The position numbers and the translations under genes were made by a program. Below, piece by piece: positions 29,301-35,300 of a DNA stretch of 64,000 nucleotides. The notes below the pieces were generated by a model, which saw only the letters and a program-made list of their open reading frames with translations, searched no databases and was not told the DNA's origin. The stretch comes from Plumapathes pennacea (lineage: Eukaryota > Cnidaria > Anthozoa > Antipatharia > Myriopathidae): NCBI GenBank assembly GCA_964036295.1, contig OZ038468.1, forward strand, positions 16,742,683 through 16,806,682. The letters run 5' to 3'. How positions within the stretch are numbered: the stretch's first letter is position 1; each line of letters opens with the position of its first letter.

Positions 29301-32300
29301 ATGGGTGACCAGATTGAAATAGATGACTCTTTGTACAGGTGATATTTATATGTTTGAGTAAATAGTAATCGTAAAACAACTGCATTAGTCACAAGTACAT
29401 TCACTCCATTGGCCATACTTATACATTAATTTTGTTATGAGTCGGTATGTGGTCGGTAAGTCGTCTACCGACCACTTACCGACAGTTCAACTTGTTCGCA
29501 ATTACCCAGGACCTGTACAGTAATAACACCATTTAAATTACAGTTGAATTTCCGTAAGTGGAGACCCTTGGGAAACAGAAAAAGTGTCTGTAACTAAAAC
29601 TATTGAGAATGTGTAATTACAGAGTTTGGCTGAGCTAGAGTCACAGGAAAAAATTTTGAAAAACCATTATTGGGTATTTGAATGGTAAATCCTAAATTCA
29701 CAGCCAAAAACCCATTATTGGGAAAACAGAACTATACCCATTAATGGTTTTGTATCAAAACCATTAATGTAAATTCATTTCCCATTCTGTGTTTTGGATG
29801 AATACCATTAATGGTTTCTCAACCATCTTTGGTGGTTTTGATGTATTTCCCATTAACAGTTTGTTGTTAGTTAGAATGGGTTATCGTGCATCCCTTGTAT
29901 TAACTGGAAGGGATGCACCAAAATGACCAGTTGTTTTGGTGCATCCCTTCTAGTGACTGGAAGGGATGCACCAAAATGACCGGTCGTTTTGGTGCATCCC
30001 TTCCAGTCAATACAAGGGATGCACCAAAACGACCGGTCATTTTGGTACATCCCTTCGGGTCACTAGAAGGGATGCACCAAAACGACCGGTCATTTTGGTG
30101 CATCCCTTCCAGTCAATACAAGGGATGCACCAAAACGACCGGTCGTTTTGGTGCATCCCTTCCAGTCACTAGAAGGGATGCACCAAAACGACCGGTCATT
30201 TTGGTACATCCCTTCCAGTCAATACAAGGGATGCACCAAAATGACCGGTCGTTTTGGTGCATCCCTTCCAGTCAATACAAGGGATGCACCAAAACGACCG
30301 GTCATTTTGGTGCATCCCTTCCAGTCAATACAAGGGATGCACCAAAACGACCGGTCATTTTGGTGCATCCCTTCCAGTTAATACAAGGGATGCACCAAAA
30401 CGACCGGTCATTTTGGTGCATCCCTTCCAGTCAATACAAGGGATGCACCAAAACGACCGGTCATTTTGGTGCATCCCTTCCAGTCAATACAAGGGATGCA
30501 CCAAAACGACCGGTCATTTTGGTGCATCCCTTCCAGTCAATACAAGGGATGCACCAAAACGACCAGTCATTTTGGTGCATCCCTTCCAGTTAATACAAGG
30601 GATGCACCAAAACGACCGGTCATTTTGGTGCATCCCTTCCAGTCACTAGAAGGGATGCACCAAAACGACCGGTCATTTTGGTGCATCCCTTCCAGTTAAT
30701 ACAAGGGATGCACCAAAACGACCGGTCGTTTTGGTGCATCCCTTCCAGTCACTAGAAGGGATGCACCAAAACGACCGGTCCTTTTGGTGCATCCCTTCCA
30801 GTCAATACAAGGGATGCACCAAAACGACCGGTCATTTTGGTGCATCCCTTCCGGTCAATACAAGGGATGCACCAAAACGACCGGTTGTTTTGGTGCATCC
30901 CTTCCAGTCAATACAAGGGATGCACCAAAACGACCGGTCATTTTGGTGCATCCCTTCCAGTTAATACAAGGGATGCACCAAAACGACCGGTCATTTTGGT
31001 GCATCCCTTCCGATCAATACAAGGGAGGCACCAAAACGACCGGTCGTTTTGGTGCATCCCTTCCAGTCAATACAAGGGATGCACCAAAACGACCGGTCAT
31101 TTTGGTGCATCCCTTCCGGTCAATACAAGGGATGCACCAAAACGACCGGTCGTTTTGGTGCATCCCTTCCAGTCAATACAAGGGATGCACCAAAACGACC
31201 GGTCGTTTTGGTGCATCCCTTCCAGTCACTAAAAGGGATGCACCAAAACGACCGGTCGTTTTGGTGCATCCCTTCCAGTCAATACAAGGGATGCACCAAA
31301 ACGACCGGTCATTTTGGTGCATCCCTTCCGGTCAATACAAGGGATGCACCAAAACGACCGGTCATTTTGGTGCATCCCTTCCAGTCAATACAAGGGATGC
31401 ACCAAAACGACCAGTCATTTTGGTGCATCCCTTCCAGTCAATACAAGGGATGCACCAAAACGACCGGTCATTTTGGTGCATCCCTTCCAGTCACTAGAAG
31501 GGATGCACCAAAACGACCGGTCATTTTGGTGCATCCCTTCCAGTCACTAGAAGGGATGCACCAAAACGACCGGTCATTTTGGTGCATCCCTTCCAGTCAA
31601 TACAAGGGATGCACCAAAACGACCGGTCATTTTGGTGCATCCCTTCCAGTCAATACAAGGGATGCACCAAAACGACTGGTCATTTTGCTGCATCCCTTCC
31701 AGTCACTAGAAGGGATGCACCAAAACGACCGATCATTTTGGTGCATCCCTTCCAGTTAATACAAGGGATGCACCAAAACGACCGGTCATTTTGGTGCATC
31801 CCTTCCAGTCAATACAAGGGATGCACCAAAACGACCGGTCATTTTGGTGCATCCCTTCCAGTCACTAGAAGGGATGCACCAAAACGACCGGTCGTTTTGG
31901 TGCATCCCTTCCAGTTAATACAAGGGATGCACCAAAACGACCGGTCATTTTGGTACATCCCTTCCAGTTAATACAAGGGATGCACCAAAACGACCGGTCA
32001 TTTTGGTGCATCCCTTCCGGTCAATACAAGGGATGCACCAAAACGACCGGTTGTTTTGGTGCATCCCTTCCAGTCAATACAAGGGATGCACCAAAACGAC
32101 CGGTCATTTTGGTGCATCCCTTCCAGTTAATACAAGGGATGCACCAAAACGACCAGTCATTTTGGTGCATCCCTTCCGATCAATACAAGGGATGCACCAA
32201 AACGACCGGTCGTTTTGGTGCATCCCTTCCGGTCAATACAAGGGATGCACCAAAACGACCGGTCGTTTTGGTGCATCCCTTCCAGTCAATACAAGGGATG

Positions 32301-35300
32301 CACCAAAACGACCGGTCGTTTTGGTGCATCCCTTCCAGTCACTAAAAGGGATGCACCAAAATGACCGGTCGTTTTGGTGCATCCCTTCCAGTCAATACAA
32401 GGGATGCACCAAAACGACCGGTCATTTTGGTGCATCCCTTCCGGTCAATACAAGGGATGCACCAAAACGACCGGTCATTTTGGTGCATCCCTTCCAGTCA
32501 ATACAAGGGATGCACCAAAACGACCGGTCATTTTGGTGCATCCCTTCCAGTCACTAGAAGGGATGCACCAAAACGACCGGTCATTTTGGTGCATCCCTTC
32601 CAGTCACTAGAAGGGATGCACCAAAACGACCGGTCATTTTGGTGCATCCCTTCCAGTCAATACAAGGGATGCACCAAAACGACCGGTCATTTTGGTGCAT
32701 CCCTTCCAGTCAATACAAGGGATGCACCAAAACGACTGGTCATTTTGGTGCATCCCTTCCAGTCACTAGAAGGGATGCACCAAAACGACCGGTCATTTTG
32801 GTGCATCCCTTCCAGTTAATACAAGGGATGCACCAAAACGACCGGTCATTTTGGTGCATCGCTTCCAGTTAATACAAGGGATGCACCAAAACGACCGGTC
32901 ATTTTGGTGCATTCCTTCCAGTCAATACAAGGGATGCACCAAAACGACCGGTCATTTTGGTGCATCCCTTCCAGTCACTAGAAGGGATGCACCAAAACAA
33001 CCGGTCGTTTTGGTGCATCCCTTCCAGTTAATACAAGGGATGCACCAAAACGACCGGTCATTTTGGTGCATCCCTTCCAGTCAATACAAGGGATGCACCA
33101 AAACGACCGGTCATTTTGGTGCATCCCTTCCGGTCAATACAAGGGATGCACCAAAACGACCGGTCGTTTTGGTGCATCCCTTCCAGTCAATACAAGGGAT
33201 GCACCAAAACGACCGGTCGTTTTGGTGCATCCCTTCCAGTCAATACAAGGGATGCACCAAAACGACCGGTCGTTTTGGTGCATCCCTTCCAGTCAATACA
33301 AGGGATGCACCAAAACGACCGGTCATTTTGGTGCATCCCTTCCAGTCAATACAAGGGATGCACCAAAACGACCGGTCATTTTGGTGCATCCCTTCCAGTC
33401 AATACAAGGGATGCACCAAAACGACCGGTCGTTTTGGTGCATCCCTTCCAGTTAATACAAGGGATGCACCAAAACGACCGGTCATTTTGGTGCATCCCTT
33501 CCAGTCAATACAAGGGATGCACCAAAACGACTGGTCATTTTGGAGCATCCCTTCCAGTCACTAGAAGGGATGCACCAAAACGACCGGTCATTTTGGTTCA
33601 TCCCTTCCAGTTAAAAGAAGGGATGCACCAAAACGACCGGTCATTTTGGTGCATCCCTTCCAGTTAATACAAGGGATGCACCAAAACGACCGGTCATTTT
33701 GGTGCATCCCTTCCAGTCAATACAAGGGATGCACCAAAACGACCGGTCATTTTGGAGCATCCCTTCCAGTCACTAGAAGGGATGCACCAAAACGACCGGT
33801 CGTTTTGGTGCATCCCTTCCAGTTAATACAAGGGATGCACCAAAACGACCGGTCATTTTGGTGCATCCCTTCCAGTTAATACAAGGGATGCACCAAAACG
33901 ACCGGTCATTTTGGTGCATCCCTTCCGGTCAATACAAGGGATGCACCAAAACGACCAGTCGTTTTGGTGCATCCCTTCCAGTCAATACAAGGGATGCACC
34001 AAAACGACCGGTCGTTTTGGTGCATCCCTTCCAGTCACTAGAAGGGATGCACCAAAACGACCGGTCGTTTTGGTGCATCCCTTCCAGTCAATACAAGGGA
34101 TGCACCAAAACGACCGGTCATTTTGGTGCATCCCTTCCGGTCAATACAAGGGATGCACCAAAACGACCGGTCGTTTTGGTGCATCCCTTCCAGTCAATAC
34201 AAGGGATGCACCAAAACGACCGGTCATTTTGGTGCATCCCTTCCAGTTAATACAAGGGATGCACCAAAACGACCGGTCATTTTGGTGCATCCCTTCCAGT
34301 CACTAGAAGGGATGCACCAAAACGACCGGTCATTTTGGTGCATCCCTTCCAGTCAATACAAGGGATGCACCAAAACGACCGGTCGTTTTGGTGCATCCCT
34401 TCCAGTCAATACAAGGGATGCACCAAAACGACCGGTCATTTTGGTGCATCCCTTCCGGTCAATACAAGGGATGCACCAAAACGACCGGTCATTTTGGTGC
34501 ATCCCTTCCAGTCACTAGAAGGGATGCACCAAAACGACTGGTCATTTTGGTGCATCCCTTCCAGTTAATACAAGGGATGCACGATAACCTATTCTAACTA
34601 ACAACAAACTGTTAATGGGAAATACATCAAAACCACCAAAGATGGTTGAGAAACCATAAATGGTATTCATCCAAAACACAGAATGGGAAATGAATTTACA
34701 TTAATGGTTTTGATACAAAACCATTAATGGGTATAGTTCTGTTTTCCCAATAATGGGTTTTTGGCTGTGAATTTAGGATTTACCATTCAAATACCCAATA
34801 ATGGTTTTTCAAAATTTTTTCCTGTGAGTTTAAGCAGGGTTTCATAGAGGCATCTGTAAGTATAGTTGTCCACTTACATGTGTGTTCACTCCGAGCTATA
34901 ACCTCTTCTTTTTTTGTCAGCCGTCAGCGTTACATGCTTGGCGATGGAGCCATGCTGAAGATTGCACATTCAAATGTCTTCCTCAGTGGACTGGGTGGGT
35001 TGGGCGTGGAGATAGGTGAGTTTAACCCTTTCACTCCCAAGAGTGATCAACTTCAATTTTCTCTTTCAGTTTCTCACCAATAATTTTTTCATACAGTAAG
35101 AAGAACTTTGCTTTTGATACTTTGCTCAAATTACAGCAGATTGAACTATCAATTCTCACTACATCACTCATACACTTTCCTCTTTAAAAGCTAGGAGAAT
35201 CTGCATTTTGATCTTGGGAGTGAAAGGGTTAAATTTTTGTCATTTTGGACAAATTTGGACAAAAGGCCCACATTAATCAGTGGCTGTGTCTATAATTTTC

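Follow-up and report, generated by a model that had tools for sequence, protein, structure and literature searches.

A fold-back element with an interior of tandem palindromes in Plumapathes pennacea, probably derived from a CACTA/EnSpm-like transposon

We analyzed a stretch of 64,000 nucleotides from Plumapathes pennacea (assembly GCA_964036295.1, contig OZ038468.1, positions 16,742,683 to 16,806,682; hereafter the window), in which a transposon-like element at 29642-34826 carries nothing between its inverted arms except a tandem array of palindromes. We consider it likely that a CACTA/EnSpm-like transposon gave rise to this non-autonomous fold-back element, with both arms taken from the left end of that parent. 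The element is an inverted duplication of a left end and its adjoining array, because the spacers between palindromes reverse direction at a single point, which lies within a palindrome, and one side is the mirror image of the other.

Architecture and insertion site of the element

A sequence-only reading of the window had placed the element at these coordinates, which are borne out, and both termini read CACAGG...CCTGTG. Its inverted ends of about 250 bp correspond to a BLAST pairing of 29642-29893 with 34826-34575 (252 bp, 99.2% identity), of which 244 bp (29642-29885 and 34583-34826) are arm and the remainder is the start of the array. The arms differ from each other at 2 of these 244 positions. 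When the two sides are compared inward from the termini, 358 of the first 361 positions are identical (two differences fall in the arms and one in the array), and the sides diverge past position 361 because the array changes direction. The 53-bp array is the sole content between the arms. The features are as follows:

29535..29641, + strand: left piece of the interrupted target, a repeat resembling a miniature inverted-repeat transposable element (MITE); the joined flanks align to 25334-25487, and 29639-29641 is the AGT duplication
29642..29885, + strand: left arm, 244 bp, copied from the left end of the family, with terminus CACAGGAAAAAATTTTGAAAAACC; the asymmetric and 12.8-kb copies start with this stretch as well
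29886..29960, - strand: array part with two spacers in R orientation, mirroring the units beside the right arm
29961..30002, no strand: 42-bp palindrome in which the array direction switches from R to F, from the sequence and the spacer reading
30003..34582, + strand: array part with spacers in F orientation and a 53-bp period (87 of 89 counted spacers)
34583..34826, - strand: right arm, an inverted copy of the left end that differs from the left arm at 2 of 244 positions
34827..34829, + strand: second copy of the AGT duplication, after which the MITE resumes, up to about 34890
25334..25487, + strand: uninterrupted MITE copy, representing the empty site, from alignment to the joined flanks

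The array (29908-34582) has a period of 53 and 88.2 copies with 95% matches, its length being known from the assembly alone; the description of the interior as about 88 such units and nothing else stands. The palindrome, previously given as 38 bp, is in fact 42 bp long and consists of two 16-bp arms and a 10-bp centre, in which a single pair close to the middle is usually mismatched; among 755 palindromes read at 15 loci, 377 carry one mismatch and 65 none. Folding of the consensus unit is much more favorable than that of shuffled sequences (z -6.82, 0/200). Consecutive palindromes are separated by an 11-bp spacer, CCAGTCAATAC in F orientation, which is asymmetric and hence directional. In the window two R spacers are followed by 87 F spacers, so that direction switches once, inside a palindrome, and two spacers are mirrored on either side when counted from the arms. 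The second symmetric copy in the genome (L009) has six R spacers and then four F spacers; counted from the left arm, its spacers R2-R4 are identical to the three nearest the right arm, with a mismatch at the fourth, and its right side lacks a portion of the arm and roughly one unit.

The AGT trinucleotide is present on both flanks of the window element, at 29639-29641 and 34827-34829, and the flanks, when joined with a single AGT, align to the MITE copy at 25334-25487 across the junction, the differences and gaps lying outside it. The 3-bp duplication proposed from the sequence is therefore supported by a diverged empty site, and the idea that the element interrupts a MITE with an intact copy nearby is upheld by the same alignment.

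As to the surroundings, window positions ~34922-35018, directly to the right of the interrupted MITE, are exon-like, and their translation matches ThiF weakly (E 0.004, below the cut-off), which we take to be reminiscent of a ubiquitin-activating E1 enzyme; the element may be located inside an intron. A 28-bp tandem satellite of ~781 copies (88% matches) occupies 38203-60009, 3.4 kb from the element, and comparison by eye, the only one made, reveals no similarity between its unit and the 53-bp unit.

Copies of the family across the genome

Searching 290 Mb in 24 contigs with the arm gave matches at 27 places in 25 loci (22 near-complete), mostly with 95-99% identity to the window arm. The presence of the arm at 24 loci besides the window agrees with the earlier view of the element as a transposon derivative. 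Copy forms were classified within 24 stretches of 9.6-9.9 kb fetched around the arm matches, those of L026 and L027 stopping short of the right ends. Two copies are symmetric (the window element and L009), and unit number varies as had been anticipated (~88 and ~10, respectively). Five loci (L010-L014) have a left end and an array with no right end found, and L012-L014, which have a common flank, are probably one insertion copied along with its surroundings. In six loci (L015-L020) a left end is followed by unique DNA, an array and a right end, with two arrays in L017 and a right end inverted within the array in L015, and in nine (L021-L029) no array is found in the fetched stretch. No coding capacity is seen in the array-bearing asymmetric copies, in which the 53-bp palindromic array adjoins the right end.

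These copies alter the interpretation of the arms. The two ends of the family have only ~28-32 terminal bp in common and differ beyond, so that the 244-bp stretch is the family's left end and the right arm of the window element is a second left end rather than the family's right end; the long arms are thus not the family's own inverted repeats. Matches to the unique stretch that adjoins the left end are present in L015-L021, L028 and L030 and are lacking in the window and L009-L014 (40 of 1840 candidates scored). Part of this stretch (L016 1615-1880) is a very common repeat, with 1840 candidates on first look. With 40 of 58 candidates scored, the junction between left end and array turned up 8 times, in 7 loci whose flanks are of 5 different kinds, and because it recurs in this way we infer that it arose once and then spread. 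All seven array/right-end junctions that were read (L015-L020 and L037) fall in one common phase, give or take a base.

The listed array matches, a portion of 647 in all (with 40 of 52 candidates scored), fall in at least 21 loci, nine with a left arm, six with a right end only and six with neither; L037, L038 and L039 were read among those lacking a left arm. L038 and L039 were read on both sides and contain the array only, and four more array-only loci are assigned by coordinates. Such loci do not give the direction of transfer, and the suggestion that the element seeded the satellite is unproven. No half-unit was found at up to two mismatches in 16 array-free pieces in a search for a single-copy ancestor, and a source-array search gave weak indications in the form of rare unit variants shared by the window with L038 (three), L009 (two) and L039 (two). 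Neither of the outcomes that would have spoken against a transposon, arms occurring only beside the array or copies with unrelated ends and no target duplication, was encountered, with the caveat that L009 is without a matching duplication.

Spacer direction differs among these forms. Spacers are R throughout in L010-L013, as far as counted, and in copies with a normal right end they are F throughout (L016, L020, L037), F after a single R (L017, L018) or mixed and mostly R (L019), while short inverted spacer runs occur within the arrays of L038 and L039. In all, direction changes inside 7 of the 15 arrays with at least two units (the window, L009, L017, L018, L019, L038 and L039); in L015 it changes only across the inserted right end.

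Several loci have irregular borders. At L009 15-1008 the symmetric copy directly borders a further member of the family, represented by its right part in inverted orientation, with no matching sequence seen on the other side. In L015, at 3699 (oriented), a palindromic unit is interrupted by a directly joined right-end terminus, after which come 58 R units; this is either a nested insertion or the element's own end joined into its array. The arrays of L010 (2168) and L011 (3865, both oriented) stop alike, at GACCRGTC and then TGTA, next to unrelated DNA and without a matching duplication.

Superfamily assignment and comparison with known systems

The family probably belongs to EnSpm/CACTA, as had been hinted from the CAC...GTG ends and the 3-bp duplication. 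Support for this assignment is provided by a 12,788-bp copy (L024/L034) that is flanked by TTG on both sides and contains transposase-like exons, which are common to L024/L034 and L023/L033 (98.9% identity over 6.5 kb). Joined at guessed splice positions, these exons have the CACTA transposase, Transposase_21, as their highest-ranking family match; Transposase_21 followed by DUF4218 is presumably the domain order of CACTA proteins. The window element and these relatives have shared termini, and exact 3-bp duplications, as expected for CACTA/EnSpm, are seen in 7 of the 12 copies in which both termini are readable: AGT in the window, where the empty site is also available, ATT in L016, ACT in L018, AGT in L019, TTA in L022, CAG in L029 and TTG in L024/L034. 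The fold-back form, with two long inverted copies around a middle part, is present in the window, L009 and L036, the last having two right ends. Subterminal repeats, a further feature of CACTA/EnSpm elements, are at most putative here: motifs resembling CCATTA(A/T)TGG recur in the arm by eye, and the right end repeats ~120 bp of itself.

A number of findings weigh against this assignment. The joined exon pieces of the 12.8-kb copy reach only 22.6 bits against Transposase_21 (E 6.7e-05), where the cut-off is 28.6, and a later exon matches DUF4218 at E 0.055, likewise below the curated cut-off; in place of the autonomous relative with a transposase that the earlier reading had named as support, there is a long copy with CACTA-like exons whose scores fall under the curated threshold. 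A family search of the genome lists at least 23 Transposase_21 places over the cut-off, and because none of those listed falls at these copies, the transposase-like copies represent a different, intron-containing lineage if they are CACTA at all. CACTA/EnSpm termini are of the CACTA or CACTG type; those of this family are CACAGG, so that CAC...GTG fits and the following bases do not. In addition, an exact 3-bp duplication is lacking in 5 of the 12 copies (L009, L017, L020, L028 and L036), and one of these, L009, flanked by CAT and ATT, is the second symmetric copy.

It is nevertheless very unlikely that the family belongs to another superfamily, whether to Mutator-type fold-backs, to PIF/Harbinger or to Helitron-like repeats built around a central tandem array. 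Long arms with tandem repeats recall Tetris of Drosophila virilis, a non-autonomous fold-back element which its authors placed in Mutator and for which they found no autonomous copy (PMC4079207), and the subthreshold transposase scores would also allow such an assignment. The duplications, however, are 3 bp rather than 8-10 bp, which led us to reject a Mutator-type fold-back; a Helitron-like repeat was rejected because it is ill matched by inverted ends together with a duplication; and the joined exons match the CACTA transposase best.

Tetris is the nearest known system in form, and CACTA elements of Chenopodium are the nearest in kind. Tetris has the fold-back form, internal tandem repeats that also occur in satellite-like arrays, and many rearranged forms; it differs from the present family in its 8-10-bp duplications, in ~220-bp repeats located inside the inverted ends (here palindromes occupy the whole interior), in that no autonomous copy was found by its authors (here there is a 12.8-kb copy with transposase-like exons), and in that the string 'palindrom' does not appear in its main text (PMC4079207). 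The family's right end lies downstream of the transposase-like exons. In Chenopodium, as far as the accessible portions of two reports extend, a satellite array lies inside the CACTA element near its 3' end, as in L015-L020, and a similar array is found away from CACTA; these are plant elements, however, with monomers that are 171-bp or ~40-bp and tnp2-derived, and those portions mention neither a fold-back nor a palindromic monomer (PMC8978399; PMC7320549). A limited literature search, which is weak evidence of absence, found no CACTA-like fold-back with an interior made wholly of a palindromic array. Fold-backs and satellite-bearing CACTA elements are already known, and it is the combination of a CACTA-like fold-back with an all-palindrome interior that appears to be new. 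FB of Drosophila melanogaster and Galileo also have long inverted arms with repeats and are prone to rearrange, but belong to other superfamilies and have their repeats within the arms.

Origin of the symmetric form

How the two-left-end form might have arisen can be outlined from the palindromes themselves, which may promote breakage and inversion. A break in the array or a stalled fork would allow a palindromic unit to fold on itself and to prime copying of the left end; alternatively, two such arrays could recombine in inverted orientation. The product, having two left ends, could still be mobilized in trans by the parent's transposase, and breaks in palindromic arrays could also give rise to half-elements and array-only loci. 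We propose, tentatively and at less than even confidence, that the palindromic satellite serves this CACTA-like transposon as an internal fragile site, which breaks near palindrome centres, yields transposable two-left-end fold-backs, sheds half-elements and scatters array-only loci, with spacer direction recording this history.

A rival possibility, itself short of probable, is that the array is a passive minisatellite expanded by slippage or unequal exchange, the palindrome being uninvolved, and that the fold-back arose in the same way as array-free ones in the family. L036, a fold-back of two inverted right ends with arms of more than 1 kb (96.8% identity) and no array, favors this explanation and counts against a fragile site; therefore the array is not required for fold-back formation. 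(The L036 element spans 204-3227, and its flanks, AGC and CCC, are mismatched.) Moreover, compensatory changes, which would favor selection on a hairpin or conversion between its arms, number zero in 130 distinct palindromes with one variable pair left out of the count (shuffles 2.7, sd 1.5), and satellite arrays occur in other CACTA elements in a report whose accessible text leaves palindromes unmentioned (PMC8978399). Passive expansion does not, however, readily account for the changes of spacer direction within nearly half of the arrays, nor for the tendency of array breakpoints to lie near palindrome centres. Of 18 array borders, many of which face other element DNA rather than host DNA, the numbers lying no more than 3, 5, 7 and 10 bp from a centre are 4 (P 0.21), 8 (P 0.02), 11 (P 0.004) and 12 (P 0.02), respectively, at distance cut-offs that were not set beforehand; this count omits the conserved junctions of the array with right ends and arms as well as the right terminus within the L015 array, and it takes L013 and L014 as copies of L012. 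The clustering is modest, which again tempers the case for a fragile site.

It is also conceivable, though unlikely, that symmetry was acquired in place by an asymmetric or half element already at this site, and that the symmetric form itself has never transposed. A clean duplication is present at only one symmetric copy, and the spacer runs are evidence of array rearrangement, both of which are consistent with conversion in place. Against this, the recurrence of the arm-array junction with different flanks implies that a derivative carrying the junction has spread, and a left end and array by themselves would be without a second end. Finally, 88 near-identical units are hard to assemble and their number may be wrong, but an assembly artefact at the repeat array is highly improbable given that the arms differ at two positions, that the AGT duplication agrees with the empty site, and that L009, with so few units, is also symmetric.

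The origin of fold-back elements and of transposon-derived satellites has mostly been inferred from end products. Here a single genome holds an array-free 12.8-kb relative, array-bearing asymmetric copies, a symmetric fold-back, half-elements and array-only loci, and each inversion can be read from the asymmetric spacer between palindromes. Should the palindromic satellite indeed act as a fragile site, palindrome-driven rearrangement of a transposon would become directly testable.

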